A stretch of 34,435 nucleotides of DNA from Actinobacteria bacterium HGW-Actinobacteria-7 (lineage in GTDB: Bacteria > Actinomycetota > Coriobacteriia > Anaerosomatales > PHET01): contig PHET01000001.1 of assembly GCA_002841275.1 (NCBI GenBank), forward strand, positions 1 through 34,435, in the 5' to 3' direction. The notes below the pieces were generated by a model, which did not search any database, was not told where the DNA came from, and worked only from the letters and a program-made list of their open reading frames with translations. The position numbers and the translations under genes were made by a program. This document shows positions 4,764 to 26,142 of the stretch, piece after piece; within the stretch, counting starts at the first letter, position 1; each line of letters opens with the position of its first letter.

Positions 4764-5600
4764 ATGGCCATCAACTCGATGCTCGTACCTGTCAGTCTGG
4801 ACGGACGCGACGAAGAGGTGCTCCAGTATGTCTGTGGTCTGGAAGCCCAGTCGGTTCGCCGCGTCATAGTGGCTACTGCAGTCGACTCCACAGGCATGGA
4901 GGCCCCGGTTCTCGCCAAGGAACTCGACAGAGCCCGTGAGCGGCTCGTGGCTATGTGTGCTGAGTTCGCCGACTGCGGTATCGATCTGGAGACCCGTGTG
5001 GTCACCGGCGAGGCCCAGAACGCCATTCTGGCACTCGCTCAGCAGTCGCATGTCGACCTCATATGTTGCGGCACCGAAGGCAAGTCGATCGTCGACTACC
5101 TGTTCTCTGGATCGATTTCAGTGGATCTCTTCTCGGCAGGCCAGATCCGCACGATGACCGTGCGATACGACTTGCTCGAGGCAGCGGCCGACCCGTCCCG
5201 GTTGGGTAGCGATTTCGGCCAGCGACTCGTGATTCCCACTGACTTCTCGGCTTCTGCCACACGTGCATTCCTCTCGGCGTTCGACAGGCCTCCCTGCGCG
5301 ATGTGCGAACTGCACGTGTTGCACGTGCTGAAGCCCGGCGCGACGGGTGGTGAGCGGCGTGACGCAGAGGTGCTGCTTGAGGGGTTGCAGCTCATCGCGC
5401 GCGAGCACGGAGTTGCCATGATCCTTGCCATGCGTGAAGGCGATCCCGCGAAGGTCACGCTGGAGTACCTCAATGAGGTCAACGCCACCGGTGTCATCAC
5501 GGGCCAACACGGCCGCGGGAGACTCCGACAGGTGATGCTGGGTGGCGTCTCGGTGAAGCTGCTTCGGGAAGCACCTTGCCCGGTCGTCGTCCAACCGTAA
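4764..5600 (+). CDS. Tandem-domain universal stress protein (UspA family)
   Basis: The 278 residues form two Usp domains. The first starts with the beta strand NSMLVPVSLDG and ends with a GTEGKS...SGSIS nucleotide-loop variant. The second starts with QRLVIPTDFSASATRAF and ends with GQHGRGRLRQVMLGGVS, close to the G-x2-G-x9-G ATP-binding signature, then APCPVVVQP. Tandem Usp proteins bind ATP/AMP or act as dimers in stress and energy sensing; a specific function cannot be assigned. The gene lies 20 bp after carA and 36 bp before carB on the same strand, with GGAG (4756-4759, within CGGAGTCC) as ribosome site, so it is almost certainly co-transcribed in the pyr operon. That location is odd and is the most informative thing about it. 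Confidence 0.88.
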   Translation: MAINSMLVPVSLDGRDEEVLQYVCGLEAQSVRRVIVATAVDSTGMEAPVLAKELDRARERLVAMCAEFADCGIDLETRVVTGEAQNAILALAQQSHVDLICCGTEGKSIVDYLFSGSISVDLFSAGQIRTMTVRYDLLEAAADPSRLGSDFGQRLVIPTDFSASATRAFLSAFDRPPCAMCELHVLHVLKPGATGGERRDAEVLLEGLQLIAREHGVAMILAMREGDPAKVTLEYLNEVNATGVITGQHGRGRLRQVMLGGVSVKLLREAPCPVVVQP

Positions 5601-8876: not shown

Positions 8877-9685
8877 CCCATACCGAACACCCTTTTGTCG
8901 AGCACGTCGAGGTGCTGTCGAATGTGCGCGTCGCTTCGGGCGTCGGTCTTCTGTCACTCACTGCGCCCCGTTGCGCCGCCACCATTCGACCGGGTCAGTT
9001 CGTTCACCTGCGCATCGGGACCCAGACCTCGAATCTCTTGCGCCGGCCGTTCTCGGTGCATCGAGCGTACGGACAGACGATCGAGATCCTGTACCAGGTG
9101 CTGGGAGCCGGAACCCTCCAGCTCGCTGAGAAGGAGCCGGGCGACACCTCGATGGACCTCGTGGGTCCGTTGGGTACTGGCTGGCGGGTTCCGCAGAACA
9201 CTTCTCATGCGTTACTGGTCGCAGGGGGGCTTGGCGCTGCTCCGCTCGGCATGCTTGCAGAACAGCTTGCTGAAGCAGGTATCGCTACAGTGGTCGCCCA
9301 AGGTGCACCTACTGCCGAGCGACTCGTTGCACGAGTGCTATTCGACCGGGTGGCACGTCGCACCGAAGTCGCGACAGACGACGGCAGCGCGGGGGAGCGC
9401 GGCTTCGTCACCGCCGTCACCGCCCGTCTTCTAGCCGCCGAGAAGTTCGATGTCGTCTACACCTGTGGCCCGGAGGTCATGGAACGGGCTGTTATCGCGC
9501 AGTGCCAGGAACGTGGGGTCGCCTGTCAGGTCTCGCTTGAGCGCCTAATGGCGTGCGGCATCGGCGCCTGCCTCTCCTGCGTTGTCACGACGAAGTCCGG
9601 TCTCAAGAGGGCTTGTGTCGATGGGCCCGTCTTCGATGCCGAGGAGGTGCTCTTCGATGCGACGGAGATCCCACCGAAGCACTAG
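8873..9685 (+). CDS. pyrK: Dihydroorotate dehydrogenase electron-transfer subunit
   Basis: This 270-residue protein of the ferredoxin-NADP reductase fold shows the FAD-binding RRPFSVHRA motif, a glycine-rich NAD region ([12 protein letters not shown]), VYTCGPEVM, and a C-terminal [2Fe-2S] cluster site with Cys228, Cys233, Cys236 and Cys248. PyrK pairs with a class 1B PyrD to pass electrons from dihydroorotate to NAD+, the arrangement found in many anaerobes and Gram-positive bacteria. The GTG start at 8873 overlaps the carB stop by four bases, implying coupled translation. Its presence together with pyrD makes the quinone-dependent class 2 enzyme unnecessary here. Confidence 0.94.
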
Positions 9686-9790
9686 ACCACACATCCCAGC
9701 AGGGTCAGCGCCCTCGGCGTGCGGTCCTGGTCTCGCTTTGGCGCCGGCCGACCCCCGCACACTGCGAGGACGTGGAAGGGGGATGCGCCC

Positions 9791-10717
9791 GTGACCGTTG
9801 ACCTCACTGTTAACCTCGGGTCACTGCCTCTCAAGAATCCCGTCATGACCGCCTCGGGGACATTCGCCTCCGGGCGTGAGTTCTCTGACTTCGTCGATCT
9901 GACGCGGCTGGGCGCTATCGTCACCAAGGGCGTGTCCATGACACCGTGGCCCGGCAACGCCAGCCCGCGCATCGCTGAGACCGCCAGCGGGATGCTCAAC
10001 TCCATCGGCCTACAGAATCCTGGCGTCGAAGCGTTCATCGAGGGAGATCTCGCGTGGCTTTCGACCAACGCGAGCTCTACGCCGGTCATCGTGAACGTCA
10101 GCGGTCATTCGGCGGCCGACTATGCCCGGGTGATTGAACGCCTTGAGACTCAAGATTCTGTCGCCGCCTACGAACTGAACATCTCCTGTCCCAATGTCGA
10201 CACGGGCGGAATGGCATTCGGTACGAGCTCCACCGCCGCGGCGGAAGTGGTTCGTGAGTGCCGATCAGCCACAAACCGCCCCCTGATTATCAAGTTGAGC
10301 CCGAATGTGACGGACATCGTTGAGATCGCACGCACGGTCGAGGCCGAAGGTGCCGACGCGGTGTCGCTCATCAACACGCTGCTGGGAATGGCTATAGACG
10401 CGAACACCCGAAGGCCCATGCTATCCCGAGTGGTAGGCGGGCTCTCTGGGCCGGCGATCAAGCCCGTCGCGCTGCGCATGGTCTGGCAGGTGGCGTGCGC
10501 ACTCGACATTCCCATCATTGGAATGGGCGGCATCATGACTGCCGAGGACGCCATCGAATTCCTGATAGCAGGCGCAACGTGCGTGGCGGTAGGCACGGGC
10601 AACTTCATCGACCCGACCACCACAATGAAGGTCATAGACGGCATCGATGAGTGGTGCCGTTCTCACGGAGTCGAGCAGGTCACCGATCTGGTCGGATCAC
10701 TGGAGGTTTCCTGGTGA
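9791..10717 (+). CDS. pyrD: Dihydroorotate dehydrogenase, class 1B catalytic subunit
   Basis: The protein has 308 residues from the GTG at 9791, preceded by GGAAGGGGGA (9774-9783). Class 1B features are LKNPVMTASGTF at the N-terminus, VTKGVSMTPWPGN, the QNPGVEAF loop, and NISCPNVDTGG with the active-site Cys. The FMN phosphate region is PIIGMGGIMTAEDAIEFLIAGA, then CVAVGTGNF. It oxidises dihydroorotate to orotate and hands electrons to PyrK, encoded just upstream after a 105-bp gap. Translation could in principle begin upstream at 9719 in the same frame, but that extension has no family resemblance and no ribosome site. The stop overlaps the pyrF GTG. Confidence 0.94.
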   Translation: MTVDLTVNLGSLPLKNPVMTASGTFASGREFSDFVDLTRLGAIVTKGVSMTPWPGNASPRIAETASGMLNSIGLQNPGVEAFIEGDLAWLSTNASSTPVIVNVSGHSAADYARVIERLETQDSVAAYELNISCPNVDTGGMAFGTSSTAAAEVVRECRSATNRPLIIKLSPNVTDIVEIARTVEAEGADAVSLINTLLGMAIDANTRRPMLSRVVGGLSGPAIKPVALRMVWQVACALDIPIIGMGGIMTAEDAIEFLIAGATCVAVGTGNFIDPTTTMKVIDGIDEWCRSHGVEQVTDLVGSLEVSW

Positions 10718-11445
10718 CAGTTGAGCTGGAACCCAAGGACCGGTTGATTGTCGCACTTGACTGCGGCGCGACCGAGGCAGTGCAGCTCGCCCACGCACTG
10801 AGAGCCACGGTTCGCTGGCTCAAAGTCGGCATGACTCTCTTCTATCAAGAAGGCCCTGCGATTGTGATGGAGCTGCAACGGCTCGGCTACGACATCTTCC
10901 TAGACCTGAAGCTCCACGACATCCCGCACCAGGTGAGCGGTGCCGCCCATGCCGTTTCCGGGCTTGGGGTCCAGATGCTCACGGTGCATGCTTCCGGCGG
11001 CGAAGCGATGATGCGCTCGGCGTGCGAGGGCGCGCGGTCCGGGGCAGTACTCACCGGGGTGAAGCCACCATCAGTGATTGCGGTGACCGTGCTGACCAGC
11101 ATGGGAGATGACGGATTGTCCAGCATAGGGGTCGACAGGCCTGCTGAGGCACAGGTGCCGCTTCTTGTGGACCTCGCCATGTCCTCTGGAGTGGACGGCA
11201 TCGTATGCTCGCCGCTTGAGAGTGCCGGTGTTCGAGCATCCATTGGCCCCAACGCGCTTGTGGTCACCCCCGGGGTACGTCCGGAATGGTCCGAGAAGGG
11301 CGATCAGAACCGAATCACCACCCCTGGCGATGCACTCTCTCGAGGAGCGAGCCATCTTGTGATCGGGCGACCAATCACAGCCGCAAGCAGTCCTGTCGAA
11401 GCCGCACGGCGAATCATCGCCGAGATGGAGGGAGCAACCAGATGA
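10714..11445 (+). CDS. pyrF: Orotidine 5'-phosphate decarboxylase
   Basis: A TIM-barrel decarboxylase of 243 residues. The N-terminal LIVALDCG strand, the catalytic DLKLHDIPHQV segment, VTVLTSMGDD, the VVTPGVRPE strand, and the phosphate-binding SHLVIGRPITAA loop identify group I OMP decarboxylase. It converts OMP to UMP. GTG at 10714 overlaps the pyrD TGA by four bases and has TGGAGG at 10701-10706; upstream in-frame codons encode pyrD-shadow sequence and are not used. The stop overlaps the pyrE ATG as ATGA. Confidence 0.95.
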   Translation: MTVELEPKDRLIVALDCGATEAVQLAHALRATVRWLKVGMTLFYQEGPAIVMELQRLGYDIFLDLKLHDIPHQVSGAAHAVSGLGVQMLTVHASGGEAMMRSACEGARSGAVLTGVKPPSVIAVTVLTSMGDDGLSSIGVDRPAEAQVPLLVDLAMSSGVDGIVCSPLESAGVRASIGPNALVVTPGVRPEWSEKGDQNRITTPGDALSRGASHLVIGRPITAASSPVEAARRIIAEMEGATR

Positions 11446-18085: not shown

Positions 18086-18625
18086 TCACTCGCAATGAGC
18101 TCGTCTCGCCGCCAGCACATCGAACTCCAGGTGGTCTCGCTCGATGGCTGACACCGCCGAGAAGACTTCGATGATGCGGGCGTTGGTGGCCCGGGCCACA
18201 ACTTCGGCGTAGAACTCGGCCGCACGCTGCTCGCGCGCTGCCGACTCGGTAATCGCGTCGCACCAGCCGCCGGCATCCCCTTCGGGAATCGCTAGGTCAT
18301 CGGGCTTCGTTTCACCCAACAGTTTGCAGAACAGCGAGCAGTGCTCGGCCTCCACGCGTGACAGCCTCTTGTAGGCACTGGCTAGGGTCTCGTCGTGCTC
18401 CAGCGAAGCCATCGCGGCATAGAACCGGGCATTCGATCGTTCAATACCGATTGCGGTCTCGAGGTCGTCCCGCTCGAGCTCAGTCAGCTGTACCCGGTTC
18501 TCGTCGCCAGAGAATCCATCACCTTCGACCATGAAGTGCTCCGCGGCTCCGCAGAACGGACAGCGCGACGGCGCGCTCGCACCAAGATAGGTCTCACCAC
18601 AGATCCGACATCGGTACATCTTCAC
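18086..18625 (-). CDS. Rubrerythrin with N-terminal rubredoxin-like domain
   Basis: The 179 residues place the iron site Cys6/Cys9/Cys22/Cys25 (CRIC...CPFC) at the N-terminus, in front of a ferritin-like diiron four-helix domain with ETAIGIERSNARFY, EAEHCSLF, EQRAAEFY and ERDHLEF supplying the Glu/His ligands. Classical rubrerythrin has the opposite order, so this is the 'reverse' architecture. Such proteins reduce peroxide or bind oxygen intermediates in anaerobes. GTG at 18625 is chosen because it overlaps the stop of the upstream gene (GTGA) and has GGGGGG seven bases before it. It is the second gene of a two-gene unit. Confidence 0.9.
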   Translation of the reverse strand: MKMYRCRICGETYLGASAPSRCPFCGAAEHFMVEGDGFSGDENRVQLTELERDDLETAIGIERSNARFYAAMASLEHDETLASAYKRLSRVEAEHCSLFCKLLGETKPDDLAIPEGDAGGWCDAITESAAREQRAAEFYAEVVARATNARIIEVFSAVSAIERDHLEFDVLAARRAHCE

Positions 18626-19161
18626 GATAATGCCCCCCGTTCTCCCTCGATAGGTCCTTCTAGAAGAGCAACAATGGTCTCGGCAAAATCCCGAGCGGCC
18701 TCGGGGCCGTTCGCCGTCACGACACAGCCGTCAACAACAACCGGACCGTCCTCCCATAGCGCACCGGAAGCCACCAGATCCTCGCGCTGACTCGGGAACG
18801 CCGTCGCCCTCACTCCGTCGAGCAGCCCCGCGTGGGCGAGCGTTGATGGAGCAATGCAAATCGCTGCGAGAAGAGCCCTGCGATCCAACGTCTCACGTGC
18901 TAGGGCGTGTGCAGTCGCGTCATCGAAGAACACCTGCGCGCCCGCACCTCCGACAAACACCACCGTGTCCCACGCCCCTCCGAGCGCGTCGCCAAGCGAC
19001 AGCTCGGCAGTCGCATGCATGCCCAGCTTGCCGATACAGTCACCCGGGCTGATGCTCGCGGTTGTCACTACGATTCCGTTTGTTTCGAAGATCTGCTTGG
19101 GTTCTGCATACTCCTCATCCCGAAAGAGGGTCGGAGCGATGACGAGCAGTGCGGATTTCAT
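18622..19161 (-). CDS. DJ-1/PfpI family protein
   Basis: A 179-residue protein with the flavodoxin-like DJ-1/PfpI fold: an N-terminal ALLVIAPTLFRDEEYAEPK (with the conserved acidic residue of the active site), VVFVGGAGAQVFFDD, and the nucleophile elbow AAICIAPSTLAHAGLL carrying the cysteine. DGCVVTANGPEAARDFAE near the C-terminus also fits. The family includes redox sensors, glyoxalase/deglycase enzymes and proteases; the substrate cannot be told. GAGGAG lies just before the ATG at 19161. It overlaps the rubrerythrin gene by four bases, pointing to a shared oxidative or carbonyl stress role. Confidence 0.88.
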   Translation of the reverse strand: MKSALLVIAPTLFRDEEYAEPKQIFETNGIVVTTASISPGDCIGKLGMHATAELSLGDALGGAWDTVVFVGGAGAQVFFDDATAHALARETLDRRALLAAICIAPSTLAHAGLLDGVRATAFPSQREDLVASGALWEDGPVVVDGCVVTANGPEAARDFAETIVALLEGPIEGERGALS

Positions 19162-20351: not shown

Positions 20352-20415
20352 ACGCCTCGTCTGCGGCGTGCGAATCCGCGCGGCACTCACACCCCCTGTG
20401 GTGGCATCTGCTATC

Positions 20416-20435
20416 GTGTACACAAACTTGTACAC
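20416..20435 (+). promoter_or_regulatory. Palindromic operator GTGTACA-N6-TGTACAC
   Basis: Two perfect inverted 7-mers (20416-20422 and 20429-20435) flank CAAACT. The right arm overlaps TTGTAC (20428-20433), which lies 17 bp before TGCAAT (20451-20456, 4/6 to the -10 consensus). A repressor bound here would cover the -35 region. The cognate regulator is not in the window. Elsewhere in 20352-20481 I see only a weak ACGCC/GGCGT stem (20354-20371) after the polyferredoxin stop. Confidence 0.65.
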
Positions 20436-20481
20436 ACGACACTTGATTGCTGCAATCGACCCCTTCGAGAGGACACCCTCC

Positions 20482-21696
20482 ATGCTGGAAGCCACACGCA
20501 TAGGCGACGGAGTCGACGCCCGCGTTGCAGAGTTCGCTGCACGCCGAGAGGCCCTTGTTTCGGCCAATCGCTACTTCTACCTGCAGCCCACGGTGGGTAA
20601 GACCAACAATCGTGTTGAGATGAAAGACGGACGCGATATGGTCATGTTGGCGTCCTACAGCTACCTCGGACTCATCGGCCATCCTCGGATTGAGGCAGCT
20701 GCCCAAGAAGCTATCGAGCAGTACGGGACCGGTGCCGGGGGAGTGCGACTCCTTACCGGTACGACCGACCTCCATGAGCGACTTGAGGCGCGTATCGCTG
20801 ACTTCTGCAGCCGCGAAGACGCCTGCGTCTACTCGTCCGGCTACATGACGAATATTGCGATCATCACCGGACTCACCGGTCCCGGCGACCTTGTCCTGAT
20901 GGACAAGCTCGATCACGCGTCGATCGTCGACGGATGTCTGCTGTCAGGCGCGAAGTGGCACACCTACCGACACAACGATATGGATCATCTGGAGCGTCTG
21001 CTTGAGAAGAATGCTGGGGAGTACGGCACGATTCTCGTCGTTGCTGACTCTGTCTTCTCAATGGATGGCGACGTGATGGACCTTCCCGGCACAAAGGCGC
21101 TATGCGAGCGATACGGCGCCCGTCTCATGGTCGACGAAGCGCATTCCGTCGGTTCTCTCGGCGCGACCGGCCACGGCATCGAAGAGCATTTCGACATGAT
21201 CGGGTCAATCGATTTCAAGATGGGCACCTTGAGCAAGTCGATCCCGAGTGTTGGAGGGTACCTAGCCGGACCACACGAGCTCATCGACTATCAGCGTCAT
21301 ATGTCCCGGCCGTTCATCTTCTCCGCTGCGCTGCCGCCTGCTCAGACCGCTGCCGCGCTTGCGGCCTTCGATGTCATCGAGGATGAGCCGTGGCGTGTCA
21401 AGCAGCTTCACGACGTCCAGCGCAGATACACGAGCGGCCTCAAGGCGCAGGGCTGGAACACCATGGAGTCGACCACGTGCGTGGTGCCGGTGCTCGTGGG
21501 CGACGAAGCCAAGACGATGGATCTCACTCGCATGCTCTTCGATGCCGGGATATTCGTGTGCCCGATTGTTCACCCCGCCGTGCCCAGAGGCAGCGACCGC
21601 CTTCGTACCTGCCTGATGGCGACTCACACGGATGCGGACCTGCAGCAGGCCCTGGACGCGTTCGAGCATGCCGGAAGGCAACTGGGGCTCATCTGA
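20482..21696 (+). CDS. PLP-dependent alpha-oxoamine synthase (BioF/KBL/SPT family)
   Basis: The protein has 404 residues from ATG 20482 (GAGAGGA at 20467-20473). Fold-type I PLP motifs are YSYLGLIGHPRIEAAA, GTGAGGVRLLTGTTDLHE, the DEAHSVGSLGATGHG loop, and MGTLSKSIPSVGGYLAG with the cofactor lysine at Lys252. The SKS context and the C-terminal THTDADLQQALDAFEHAG segment look more like serine palmitoyltransferase-type members than biotin-pathway BioF (usually GKAFG). The family joins an amino acid to an acyl-CoA with loss of CO2. No biotin, threonine-degradation or sphingolipid genes are nearby, so the product is undetermined. The gene stands alone behind its own operator, 100 bases before a sensor gene. 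Confidence 0.85.
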   Translation: MLEATRIGDGVDARVAEFAARREALVSANRYFYLQPTVGKTNNRVEMKDGRDMVMLASYSYLGLIGHPRIEAAAQEAIEQYGTGAGGVRLLTGTTDLHERLEARIADFCSREDACVYSSGYMTNIAIITGLTGPGDLVLMDKLDHASIVDGCLLSGAKWHTYRHNDMDHLERLLEKNAGEYGTILVVADSVFSMDGDVMDLPGTKALCERYGARLMVDEAHSVGSLGATGHGIEEHFDMIGSIDFKMGTLSKSIPSVGGYLAGPHELIDYQRHMSRPFIFSAALPPAQTAAALAAFDVIEDEPWRVKQLHDVQRRYTSGLKAQGWNTMESTTCVVPVLVGDEAKTMDLTRMLFDAGIFVCPIVHPAVPRGSDRLRTCLMATHTDADLQQALDAFEHAGRQLGLI

Positions 21697-21723
21697 CACT
21701 GCGTGCGAACCTGGCTCCCGAGC

Positions 21724-21732
21724 TGATAGAAT
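21724..21732 (+). promoter_or_regulatory. Extended -10 promoter candidate for the sensor pair
   Basis: TGATAGAAT combines the TGn extension with a 5/6 -10 hexamer (TAGAAT, 21727-21732). The -35 region is poor. Start would be near 21739, about 58 bases before the first sensor gene. Confidence 0.45.
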
Positions 21733-21788
21733 CTGTGATTGTGAGCAGTGGAAAGTGGGGGACTGCCGTTCAGCGTAGACAATCACAG
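21733..21788 (+). repeat. 10-bp perfect inverted repeat in sensor leader
   Basis: CTGTGATTGT (21733-21742) is the exact reverse complement of ACAATCACAG (21779-21788). Inside it GCAGT (21745-21749) pairs with ACTGC (21762-21766). The right arm overlaps the CAGGG ribosome site before ATG 21797, so as RNA it could hide the start. As DNA it would be paired TGTGA-type half-sites about 46 bp apart. Confidence 0.6.
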
Positions 21789-21796
21789 GGAACGTG

Positions 21797-23956
21797 ATGC
21801 AGGGGACTCGTGCGTTCGTGCCGCCCAAAGTCCAGCCGTCGGTTCTTGTGGCATGGCTATTTGCTGCCGTCGTGTTGGGTGCATATACCATCCTCCGGTT
21901 CGCGGTCGCCACACCTTCGGCCGTGGGAATCTCACAAGTGCTGTTCCTCAGCGGGCCGCTACTCGCACTCGCGTTCTCGACAGCAGCAACGTGGGCCGCT
22001 CCTTCCCGGACACGCGCTCAGTTCATCTGGCTGCTTCTCTCGGCCAGCATGGGCCTGCTTCTGGTTTCTGAGTGCCTGTACAGCTGGCAAGCTGTGTCTG
22101 AGGGAGCCGGACCACTTAGCCTCAACGTGGCCGACCTGCTGAATCTGATCGCGCTCGTGCTTGTGCTAGCGCTGATGGGCGCCATCTCCGGGATCGACCG
22201 GCGCGCTTGGCGGAGAAACGCTTTGCTCGTGGTCAACTGCCTGGTTGTTGCAGTGGCAGCCTTTGCGCTGTTGTACGGCGTGTGGATCGGCGAGTTGGCC
22301 TCGTCGATCGCCACCGTATACGCAATCACTATGACCGCCTATTCCGTATTCGGTCTGATGCTATTGATCCTTGTGGGCTTCGTCTGGGTCGAGATGGGTC
22401 CCGTCCGCGAAAGCAGCTCATCTCGACTCATCATCACAGCAATCGTGGTGTATGCGGCGGGCCTGTGCTTCTGGCCGCTCTGGCGGCTGTCATCGGAGGC
22501 GCATGTCTCAGCCCTCTGGGCAGAGATCGTCCTTGACGTTCTGCTTCTCACAGCCTACCTGCTGGTCTTTCTCGCTGGAGTCCACCGCATCGAGAATGCG
22601 ACTGCGGACTGGCTCCGAACACCGGCCGTAAGCTATCGCTTTCCGGTTCCGTGGGTAGACATGACCGTGTCGGCGATGGCGACCGTTGTGGTACTGGCCA
22701 GCGGCTGGGGAGCCTATCAGGCCGGACGGCTCTCGCCTGGCAGAGATGTCTACCTAGGAGTACTGATTGCCTCAACGCTACTTGCCGTCTGTCGTACCGT
22801 GCTGGCGGCGCACCTGGACGAGCGGTTGGGGACCCGCTTGATAACAGACGAAGTGACCGGGACACAGAACGCTCGCGGGCTCGATGCGAGAGTCGCTGTC
22901 TACCTGGCTTCCGCCACGCGGTTTGGAGAGAGCTTCGTTCTGATCATCGCCGCTGCTGACAGGTTCTCACATCTTGGCGACAGACTCGGGCCGGAACTGG
23001 GCGACGAGGCCCTCGCCAGAGTCGCCAGCGTGCTGACCGAGGGACTCGAGGGTACCGGTCAGGTATTCAGCCTGCTCGGTGATCGGTTCGCAATCCTCGC
23101 ACCAATAGCAGATTCCAGCGAGGCCGGCCGGCTTGCCTCAAGGGCCAGAAGCCTGGTCCGTTCGGTGGTCGTCGCGGGCAGGGGACTTGAATGCTCGGTA
23201 GGATTCGCCTTGTGCCCGGATGACGCGATTGTGCAGGATGCGCTCGTACTCAGAGCGGAGCAAGCGCTCGCGTGGGCGCAGAGTCACGGTGGCGGTCAGA
23301 TCGTGCGTCATGACGATCACATTGAGCGCGCGATCGGGATGAACGCCCGCACCAACACGCTTGAGAGAAGTTCACGACTTGATATGGTCCGAGCCCTTTC
23401 CGCCGCAGCCGACGCACGCGATCGCTCCAACACTGCTCATTCACGACAGGTAGCCGCCCTTTCGCGATCACTGGCCGAGCGTCTGGGATTCGATGAAGAG
23501 CACTCCGAACGGGTACAGATCGCGGCACTGCTGCACGATGTCGGCAAGATCGCATTGGCTCGCGACGGTCACCCCGATCGGTCGCGATACTTCCCACGCG
23601 ACGAAACCGTGGGCCAACATGCGCAGCTCGGTGCACGGATGCTCGAATCACTCGGGGCAGAGGACATCCCCGTCTGGGTTCTCCACCACCACGAGCGATG
23701 GGACGGACAAGGCTGCCCGAGCGGAGTTGCGGGAGATATGATTCCGATTGAGGCTAGGATCATCGCCATTGCCAATCACTTCGACCGCCGTATCTCCGGT
23801 GCGCTTCACGGTTCGCCGATGTCCAAACTGGCCGTACTGCAAGATATTGATCTAGGCATCGGCACACTGTTCGATCCTGCCCTCGCGGAGATGTTCATCG
23901 AGATGATTGCTTCGTCCCAAGGCTTCGGGTGGGCCGGATGGGGACACGACTCGTGA
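21797..23956 (+). CDS. Membrane sensor with degenerate GGDEF and HD (HD-GYP-like) domains
   Basis: The 719-residue protein has about nine hydrophobic segments in residues 15-345. Next comes a GGDEF-like domain (about 355-510) whose signature is Leu427-Gly-Asp-Arg-Phe431, so cyclase activity is unlikely. The C-terminal HD domain (about 535-710) retains His580-Asp581 in LLHDVGKIAL and HHHERWDGQG, but has GCP instead of GYP and lacks the usual IPD..L.K segment. A receptor or weak phosphodiesterase is possible. ATG 21797 is preferred over GTG 21794 because of spacing from CAGGG. It overlaps or abuts a paralogous gene. The ligand is unknown; the membrane part matches no sensory domain I can name. 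Confidence 0.85.
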   Translation: MQGTRAFVPPKVQPSVLVAWLFAAVVLGAYTILRFAVATPSAVGISQVLFLSGPLLALAFSTAATWAAPSRTRAQFIWLLLSASMGLLLVSECLYSWQAVSEGAGPLSLNVADLLNLIALVLVLALMGAISGIDRRAWRRNALLVVNCLVVAVAAFALLYGVWIGELASSIATVYAITMTAYSVFGLMLLILVGFVWVEMGPVRESSSSRLIITAIVVYAAGLCFWPLWRLSSEAHVSALWAEIVLDVLLLTAYLLVFLAGVHRIENATADWLRTPAVSYRFPVPWVDMTVSAMATVVVLASGWGAYQAGRLSPGRDVYLGVLIASTLLAVCRTVLAAHLDERLGTRLITDEVTGTQNARGLDARVAVYLASATRFGESFVLIIAAADRFSHLGDRLGPELGDEALARVASVLTEGLEGTGQVFSLLGDRFAILAPIADSSEAGRLASRARSLVRSVVVAGRGLECSVGFALCPDDAIVQDALVLRAEQALAWAQSHGGGQIVRHDDHIERAIGMNARTNTLERSSRLDMVRALSAAADARDRSNTAHSRQVAALSRSLAERLGFDEEHSERVQIAALLHDVGKIALARDGHPDRSRYFPRDETVGQHAQLGARMLESLGAEDIPVWVLHHHERWDGQGCPSGVAGDMIPIEARIIAIANHFDRRISGALHGSPMSKLAVLQDIDLGIGTLFDPALAEMFIEMIASSQGFGWAGWGHDS

Positions 23957-26142
23957 GGTACACAGACTACAAGCCGCTGCCTACGTGGCTGCGTTCATTG
24001 GCGTGGATCTCGGTCGCTGCACTGTTCGTTGCGCGTCTCGTCATCGGTTCGCTTGGCCTTGATTGGCGGACGGAAATCGTTGTCTCCGACTCCGTGACCT
24101 ACTTGCTCCCCATGGTAGTGGTGCTCTTCTTGGCGTTTGCCGCGAGTGTACGTACACGCGGCGCGGTCGAGCACGCACTCTGGGGGATGCTTGCGGCAGC
24201 CACGGTACTGGGCTTTGCAGCGGAATCATACTGGACGTGGTATTCGGTCAGTATCGACCTGCACGGCCCGCCGCCCGGATCATGGAGCTACGTGTTGCGC
24301 TTGGGCGCTTTCATGTTTCTCTTCTTCGGAGTGAGTCAAATGACGCGCTGGGGTTCGCACGGACTGGTATCTCGATTGCGAACCCATCTGGATATCCTGG
24401 GCATCGGCGCCATGGTCTTCTCGGTTCTGTATATGGGTTGGACCTATCCAACGATGAGTACCGTTCCTCGCGCGAGCAACGCAGGTGCGGTTGTGATGGC
24501 CCTCTACCCGATTACGGGGGCACTACTTCTGCTAGGCACGAAGGCGGTATTCGTCGGCTGGAAGACACATCGTTGGCGAGTGTGGGAGCGTCTGACGACG
24601 GCCTCGTTCGGGATGACCGCAGCTTCTCTGCTCGTGACGCCGATCTGGTACCCAGCATTTCTCAGGTCGAGCAACCTCGGGCCAACCTGGCTGACCACGT
24701 ACCTCGGGGCGGGCTATGCAATCCTAGGGGTCGCAGCGGTCTACCGACTCAGCGCACAATCCGACGAAGCCATTGTCGAACCGTGGCCCATGTCGTCTGA
24801 AGTTGGATGGTGGAAAGGTCGGTTCCGTCTCATGCTGATGGTGCTGGGCTTGCCGCTGATGGGCTGGGCCGCCGTCTCCATTCGAAATACCGACAACTCT
24901 CGCACCTTGGTGGGCGCGACTGCGACCCTCGCACTTGCGATTGTTGGTCGCGCGTTGCTCGACGACGTCATGCGAACGCGCAACCTCATACAACATGCGA
25001 CCGACCAGGTGGTCTGGCCGACCAGCAGGGCACAATTCGAGCGGTGCGTTCTCGAAGCGATTGCACGTGCTTGTGAAGCTGGCGCGCCCCTGAGTCTGGT
25101 CATCTTCGCAGAACCGAACGCGCCAGCATTCAACCAAAGTCCTGGGACATCGGACCGATACCAATCAGCGGCCAGGATCGCTGAAGCGATTCGCAGTTCG
25201 GGGGGGCAAGTTGGATCGTCATTCCGACTGAGCAATAGCCAGTTCGCAGTCGTGTGCGAACGCACGGATGTCCACGAGGCGGCGACATTCGCACGGCGGC
25301 TGTGGCTTCGCTACAGGCGCAGCCCCGGCGAGTCCGACGTGGCACCCGAGCTCTTCTCGGGAGTTGCGGGGTATCCCCAGCACGGTCAGGACGTCCAGCC
25401 CCTTCTGGCTGCAGCTCAGCTTGCGTGTCAGCAGGCTTCCGGCACCGACGGAGAACCGGTGGCCATATACGACCCGGAGTCCTGCACGAAGGAAGCCGGT
25501 CCTGTCGATAGCAGCCGACTTCGTATCATTCGGGCCACCGTGCGCTCGCTTGCACAGACCGTCGACGCACGCGATCCTCTCTCCCAGGACCATTCGACCA
25601 ACGTCTCAGAGCTGGCGACAGCCCTCGCACAAGTACTTGATCTCCCTGACGAACAGGTGCATATGATCGGCCTTGCCGCCCTGATGCACGACGTGGGGAA
25701 GGTCGGGCTGAGCGACTACCTCCTGCTGAAGCCGGCGCCGCTGACGGCCGAGGAGCAGCTCGAGTATGAAGAACACGTCATGCTCGGCGAAATGATTCTT
25801 GCGCCGGCGAATATCGACGAGGTGCTACCGGCGGTCCGTCACCACCACGAAAGATGGGATGGTACAGGCTATCCCGACGGGCTCTCGGGGCACGACATTC
25901 CGCTGGAGGCTCGTGTTCTCGCCGTCTGCGACGCATTCGAGAAGCTCACCGCTGACCGTGAACATGGGGAGACGCGGGACACCGAGGACGTGCTGCTCGA
26001 GCTGGAGCGTGGCTCTGGCACGCTCTTCGATCCGGTCATTTCGGCCGTCTTCTGCCGACTGATTCGCGGGCTTCGAACGCCACAGGCGGAATCATCAGAC
26101 AACCAACGAAAGCCCACGAGCGAACCCAACCATGCATTCTAG
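23938..26142 (+). CDS. Membrane sensor with degenerate GGDEF and canonical HD-GYP domains
   Basis: The 734 residues share the plan of the preceding product: eight to ten membrane segments (about 10-350), then a GGDEF-like region whose signature is replaced by Ser432-Asn-Ser-Gln-Phe436, then a complete HD-GYP phosphodiesterase domain with His584-Asp585 in LMHDVGK, LLLKPAPLTAEEQ, HHHERWDGTGYPDG (Gly644-Tyr645-Pro646) and CDAFEKLTADR. It probably hydrolyses cyclic di-GMP. Start choices are ATG 23938 or GTG 23953, the latter overlapping the previous stop as GTGA; both imply coupling. The stop codon overlaps that of the convergent korB in CTAG. Confidence 0.88.
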   Translation: MGTRLVRYTDYKPLPTWLRSLAWISVAALFVARLVIGSLGLDWRTEIVVSDSVTYLLPMVVVLFLAFAASVRTRGAVEHALWGMLAAATVLGFAAESYWTWYSVSIDLHGPPPGSWSYVLRLGAFMFLFFGVSQMTRWGSHGLVSRLRTHLDILGIGAMVFSVLYMGWTYPTMSTVPRASNAGAVVMALYPITGALLLLGTKAVFVGWKTHRWRVWERLTTASFGMTAASLLVTPIWYPAFLRSSNLGPTWLTTYLGAGYAILGVAAVYRLSAQSDEAIVEPWPMSSEVGWWKGRFRLMLMVLGLPLMGWAAVSIRNTDNSRTLVGATATLALAIVGRALLDDVMRTRNLIQHATDQVVWPTSRAQFERCVLEAIARACEAGAPLSLVIFAEPNAPAFNQSPGTSDRYQSAARIAEAIRSSGGQVGSSFRLSNSQFAVVCERTDVHEAATFARRLWLRYRRSPGESDVAPELFSGVAGYPQHGQDVQPLLAAAQLACQQASGTDGEPVAIYDPESCTKEAGPVDSSRLRIIRATVRSLAQTVDARDPLSQDHSTNVSELATALAQVLDLPDEQVHMIGLAALMHDVGKVGLSDYLLLKPAPLTAEEQLEYEEHVMLGEMILAPANIDEVLPAVRHHHERWDGTGYPDGLSGHDIPLEARVLAVCDAFEKLTADREHGETRDTEDVLLELERGSGTLFDPVISAVFCRLIRGLRTPQAESSDNQRKPTSEPNHAF

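Follow-up and report, generated by a model that had tools for sequence, protein, structure and literature searches.

A stand-alone serine palmitoyltransferase-like synthase of Anaerosomatales, probably controlled by a dedicated DNA-binding protein encoded elsewhere

The closest solved structures to the alpha-oxoamine synthase described here (AOS) are serine palmitoyltransferases (SPTs), enzymes that catalyse the first step in making sphingolipids. The best match is the SPT of Sphingobacterium multivorum (PDB 8guh/3a2b), with which AOS shares the PLP site, the motif GTxSKS and a deep clade (PMC10196870). A PKS-linked synthase of Streptomyces NBC_00158 falls in the same subclade as AOS, and SgaB of Pseudomonas fluorescens, a PKS-linked alpha-oxoamine synthase with SPT activity (PMC12134224), is likened to AOS by description, not by sequence. 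CqsA and LqsA belong to the same PLP enzyme superfamily and have the membrane sensors CqsS and LqsS encoded nearby; CqsA, also an alpha-oxoamine synthase, makes a diffusible signal of the aminoketone/hydroxyketone type and has a membrane sensor as its partner, and sensors of the CqsS/LqsS type are 6-TM histidine kinases (PMC3376566). The proteins encoded downstream of AOS are related to the HD-GYP c-di-GMP phosphodiesterases (PF13487).

We analysed a window of 34,435 nucleotides, which is the start of one contig of a 2.53 Mb genome. A first-pass annotation had described a regulated alpha-oxoamine synthase followed within 100 bp by two multi-spanning proteins with cyclic-di-GMP-type output domains, and had proposed that they may form a signal producer-receiver pair. 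The three genes are present as described: AOS (20482..21696, + strand, 404 aa), R1 (21794..23956, + strand, 720 aa) and R2 (23929..26142, + strand, 737 aa). R1 begins 97 bp after the AOS stop and overlaps R2 by 28 bp. The family assignment of AOS also stood, with a Pfam match to PF00155 at 217 bits and NCBIfam models pointing to the same alpha-oxoamine synthase family. Named homologues come from Coriobacteriia and Anaerosomatales MAGs, which places the genome in Anaerosomatales or very close to that order. The gene order common to the order is pyr genes, gmk, thiI, rubrerythrin, PfpI, AOS, receptors, KorBA and CoaBC. The rubrerythrin and DJ-1/PfpI genes (18086-19161), which resemble an oxidative-stress set and are conserved across the order, are divergent from the gene for an Fe-S membrane protein 5' of AOS. 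Within the pyrimidine operon, carA and carB are separated by a universal-stress-type-looking gene (4764-5600), as they also are in G013.

Upstream of AOS we found a -10-like hexamer, TATCGT (20412..20417, + strand; part of a predicted promoter), whose counterparts in relatives are TATAGT, TATGAT and TATCAT. It lies directly 5' of an operator, TGTACACA-AACT-TGTACACA (20417..20436, + strand), an imperfect palindrome that overlaps the presumed transcription start of AOS. The family form of the operator is TGTNNACA-N4-TGTNNACA; it follows the -10 box immediately, and its halves nearly always read TGTRYACA. The operator was found in all 40 orthologous AOS promoters examined (38 at 12/12 positions and 2 at 11/12), whereas 0 of 6000 shuffled sequences carried it at 11/12 or better, and the earlier description of AOS as regulated is borne out by this conservation. 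When TGTRYACA-N4-TGTRYACA was searched with at most one mismatch, the window's whole genome contained two sites, in the promoters of AOS and of a gene that we call REG, and genomes lacking both AOS and REG contained zero sites. Additional matches in G028, in G033 and, next to an rpiB-like gene, in G022 are apparently due in part to chance.

The second operator site precedes a two-gene operon encoding REG (206 aa) and Q5 (307 aa), and the operator precedes REG in most relatives. No Pfam or NCBIfam model scored REG above its cut-off, but weak hits (E 0.01-0.06) and the sequence pattern suggest an N-terminal HTH, and we regard REG as a putative HTH DNA-binding protein. Q5 likewise matched no Pfam or NCBIfam family; we take it to resemble proteins annotated as quinate 5-dehydrogenase. 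The Q5 family (about 307 aa; 892-2411 of locus L187 in the window's genome) is operonic with REG, and in relatives it adjoins cytochrome c maturation and heme genes. Searches for PDB relatives of REG and Q5, for REG on plasmids and for REG/Q5 homologues beside distant AOS genes found none.

The distribution of REG closely followed that of AOS. Among 41 relatives, REG was present in 27/29 genomes with AOS and in 1/12 without it. In a class-wide sample, the corresponding counts were 41/44 and 1/204 (p = 4e-42; this and the other p-values given here overstate the evidence, because genomes are not independent). Most of the genomes are MAGs, in which absences may be assembly gaps, and the exceptions are mostly incomplete genomes: three carry AOS without detected REG (82, 91 and 84% complete), and one, G022, carries REG without AOS (90% complete). 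In none of the genomes examined do REG and AOS share a contig. Outside Anaerosomatales, AOS and REG occur in the identical 10 genomes from two families; in these, the operator persists at the AOS promoters examined but is missing from the REG promoters, indicating that the link between REG and AOS is independent of shared position. Q5 is more widespread, being present in three genomes (G004, G019 and G032) that lack both REG and AOS, which shows that REG, not Q5, tracks AOS. Some members of families f10, f11 and f15, and all sampled members of f2 and f12, lack AOS and REG alike, a pattern that points to several separate losses or replacements. The real partner tied to AOS across the class thus appears, from gene distribution, to be REG, encoded elsewhere, and not the adjoining membrane sensors.

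R1 and R2 each contain a multi-helix N-terminal half, then a GGDEF domain, then an HD-GYP domain. Both carry a degenerate GGDEF motif (LLGDRF and RLSNSQF). R2 keeps HD...HHERWDGTGYP, while R1 retains HD and has GCP in place of GYP, so R2 alone has an intact HD-GYP motif and is the putative c-di-GMP phosphodiesterase. Residues 1-354 of R2 were modelled by AlphaFold as ten helices (mean pLDDT 84). The comparison of this membrane half with known structures gave no significant fold match, the best being rhodopsins (TM-score about 0.4, E >0.03). R2 shares the HD and GYP motifs with the PF13487 phosphodiesterases, but R1 and R2 differ from these in their novel polytopic N-terminal half and degenerate GGDEF, and R1 also in its altered motif. 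Being HD-GYP proteins of about ten helices, they also differ from CqsS/LqsS-type sensors. The proteins encoded at 21794-26142 and their relatives form a fast-evolving polytopic GGDEF/HD-GYP family of about ten helices, in 1-3 tandem copies, with a membrane half of weakly rhodopsin-like similarity only.

AOS scored under every NCBIfam equivalog cut-off. Its top score was against the BioF model (405 bits, cut-off 426), and its scores against the SPT models were 390/640, 315/500 and 264/670 bits (score/cut-off), against the KBL models 375/460 and 323/493, against the ALAS model 274/339 and against the LqsA/CqsA-type model 206/428. CqsA structures matched AOS at 117 bits, compared with 283 for SPT, a comparison of profile and structure-sequence scores alone. 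We placed AOS in a maximum-likelihood tree of 97 rows, none of them CqsA. The results showed that AOS falls within an SPT-containing clade of 69 rows (support 100/98), with KBL, BioF and ALAS outside, and that its lineage is sister to the SPT subclade, not inside it. The subclade of AOS (100/98) holds the PKS-fused Streptomyces synthase, 51% identical to AOS, and a 51% identical relative in G032. The catalytic residues of AOS are intact (PLP lysine K252, H145, D218, H221 and R375), and the His, Asp, His, Lys and Arg are kept in 17/17 Coriobacteriia rows checked. AOS has GTLSKS where the SPT motif is GTFSKS (PMC10196870). The serine contacts N52 and S81 of SPT are Y59 and V88 in AOS, uniformly in the same 17/17 rows, and Tyr at the first of these positions occurs in some SPTs (PMC9304779). 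Since two substrate-contact positions differ, the amino acid used by AOS may not be serine. Unlike bacterial SPTs, AOS has no sphingolipid genes visible beside it.

Other SPT-like synthases occur in the order. In G013 (9005-11064 of locus L282) and G032 (3464-5637 of L158), an SPT-like synthase adjoins an SDR, as in sphingoid-base synthesis; the two SDRs are 71% identical to each other, and these genomes are possible sphingolipid producers within Anaerosomatales, as judged from gene content. A 54% identical relative of this SDR lies inside the heme gene cluster of the window's genome. The window's genome therefore has a reductase available, but one whose relatives also occur in genomes without AOS; a KDSR-like SDR was on these grounds rejected as a specific partner of AOS. 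In family f12, the genomes searched had no AOS ortholog, REG or operator site and carry a 43-47% identical synthase instead; in the one examined, from G039, the contact residues are SPT-like, and the tree puts it close to enzymes of Anaerolineaceae.

The top BioF score, not far under its cut-off, would suit a housekeeping enzyme (BioF, KBL or ALAS) whose score happens to be low, a reading that we consider very improbable. BioB over cut-off was absent from 40/41 relative genomes in a profile search, the window's genome being without biotin synthase, and in G007, the sole BioB-positive genome, a separate BioF adjoins BioB. The second alpha-oxoamine synthase in the window's genome is a KBL beside tdh. 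This separate KBL, the near-absence of BioB and the tree together exclude BioF and KBL as the role of AOS. ALAS was rejected on its score and the tree, and the heme cluster with glutamyl-tRNA reductase, read from sequence, makes it needless. CqsA/LqsA membership was rejected at less than half the model's cut-off. A SulA-type cysteate acyltransferase was also rejected: Lys281, the SulA residue used for comparison (PMC9304779), corresponds to Ala282 in AOS. That AOS might off-load an assembly line, joining an amino acid to an ACP-bound polyketide or fatty chain, is suggested by the sister position of the PKS-fused Streptomyces synthase, which shares Y59 and V88, and by the precedent of SgaB. We hold this to be improbable, as the loci of the order show no recognisable gene for a PKS, an ACP or an acyl-ACP synthetase in the vicinity of AOS, which there, in contrast to the PKS-linked enzymes, is a free-standing single gene. 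The best reading of AOS from these comparisons is an SPT-like long-acyl activity, with a long-chain alpha-aminoketone (sphingoid-like) as the inferred product, so that the lipid-synthesis role, which the first-pass annotation had allowed as an alternative, fits best.

It is unlikely, in our judgement, that AOS makes a diffusible aminoketone or hydroxyketone that R1 and R2 sense, changing c-di-GMP. Receptors lie directly 3' of AOS in about 21/28 testable Anaerosomatales loci, on the same strand and mostly 40-170 bp after the stop, CqsA offers a precedent, and the HD-GYP motif of R2 is intact. Between AOS and R1 the window shows no terminator, and co-transcription remains plausible. However, AOS is equally often adjacent to the rubrerythrin/PfpI/Fe-S protein genes (21/29); synteny extends over the entire locus, and adjacency alone therefore says little. 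Receptor copies number 0, 1, 2 or 3 per locus. AOS is kept without receptors in five genomes (G003, G008, G021, G034 and G040), receptors were absent beside AOS in 7/7 testable loci outside Anaerosomatales, and G038 has receptors at the same locus without AOS. Inside the order, the receptor family was present in 24/34 genomes with AOS and 17/35 without (p = 0.09), a near independence; across the class the association (p = 4e-11) arises solely because both concentrate in Anaerosomatales. AOS is 75-83% identical across the order, whereas the downstream receptors are about 30% identical. AOS also lies far under the CqsA/LqsA model, and the membrane half of R2 is without a significant fold match. 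Co-occurrence across genomes thus held as frequent adjacency within Anaerosomatales, no tighter than that of neighbouring genes and lost elsewhere, and the specific pairing of producer and receivers was not supported. With the receptor family hardly tied to AOS in a syntenic locus, the producer-receiver reading gains little, and co-orientation is its sole support.

We therefore favour, as probable, a stand-alone SPT-like AOS that makes a long-chain aminoketone under the dedicated regulator REG, acting through the operator. AOS would join a long-chain acyl thioester to an amino acid, and the resulting alpha-aminoketone would be either a lipid of the sphingoid-base type or a precursor of one. 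REG would bind TGTRYACA-N4-TGTRYACA at the AOS promoter and most likely repress AOS and, in many species, itself: the overlap of the operator with the likely transcription start argues for repression, and its presence at REG's own promoter argues for feedback. REG would be released by a ligand inside the cell (the product, the acyl precursor or a substrate state), most economically by the AOS product or the acyl precursor. The downstream HD-GYP proteins would be fast-evolving, dispensable membrane sensors, probably read from the AOS promoter in Anaerosomatales. A further version, in which the aminoketone is an intra- or intercellular signal, REG its cytoplasmic receptor and, in Anaerosomatales, the co-transcribed HD-GYP proteins added receivers that convert lipid or signal levels into c-di-GMP, strikes us as doubtful; if it were true, REG would be a one-component system that regulates itself and has AOS as its only enzyme target.

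The favoured regulator-operator-enzyme arrangement would be a minimal unit for a sphingolipid-type enzyme, conserved in Anaerosomatales and two further families and thus across much of a little-studied class of Actinomycetota. The locus also carries a caution, namely that producer-receptor pairs should not be read from adjacency where synteny is strong. The operator provides a direct means of tracing both ligand and product, and it would be a novelty for a lone SPT-like enzyme to have its own regulator from an unclassified DNA-binding family.
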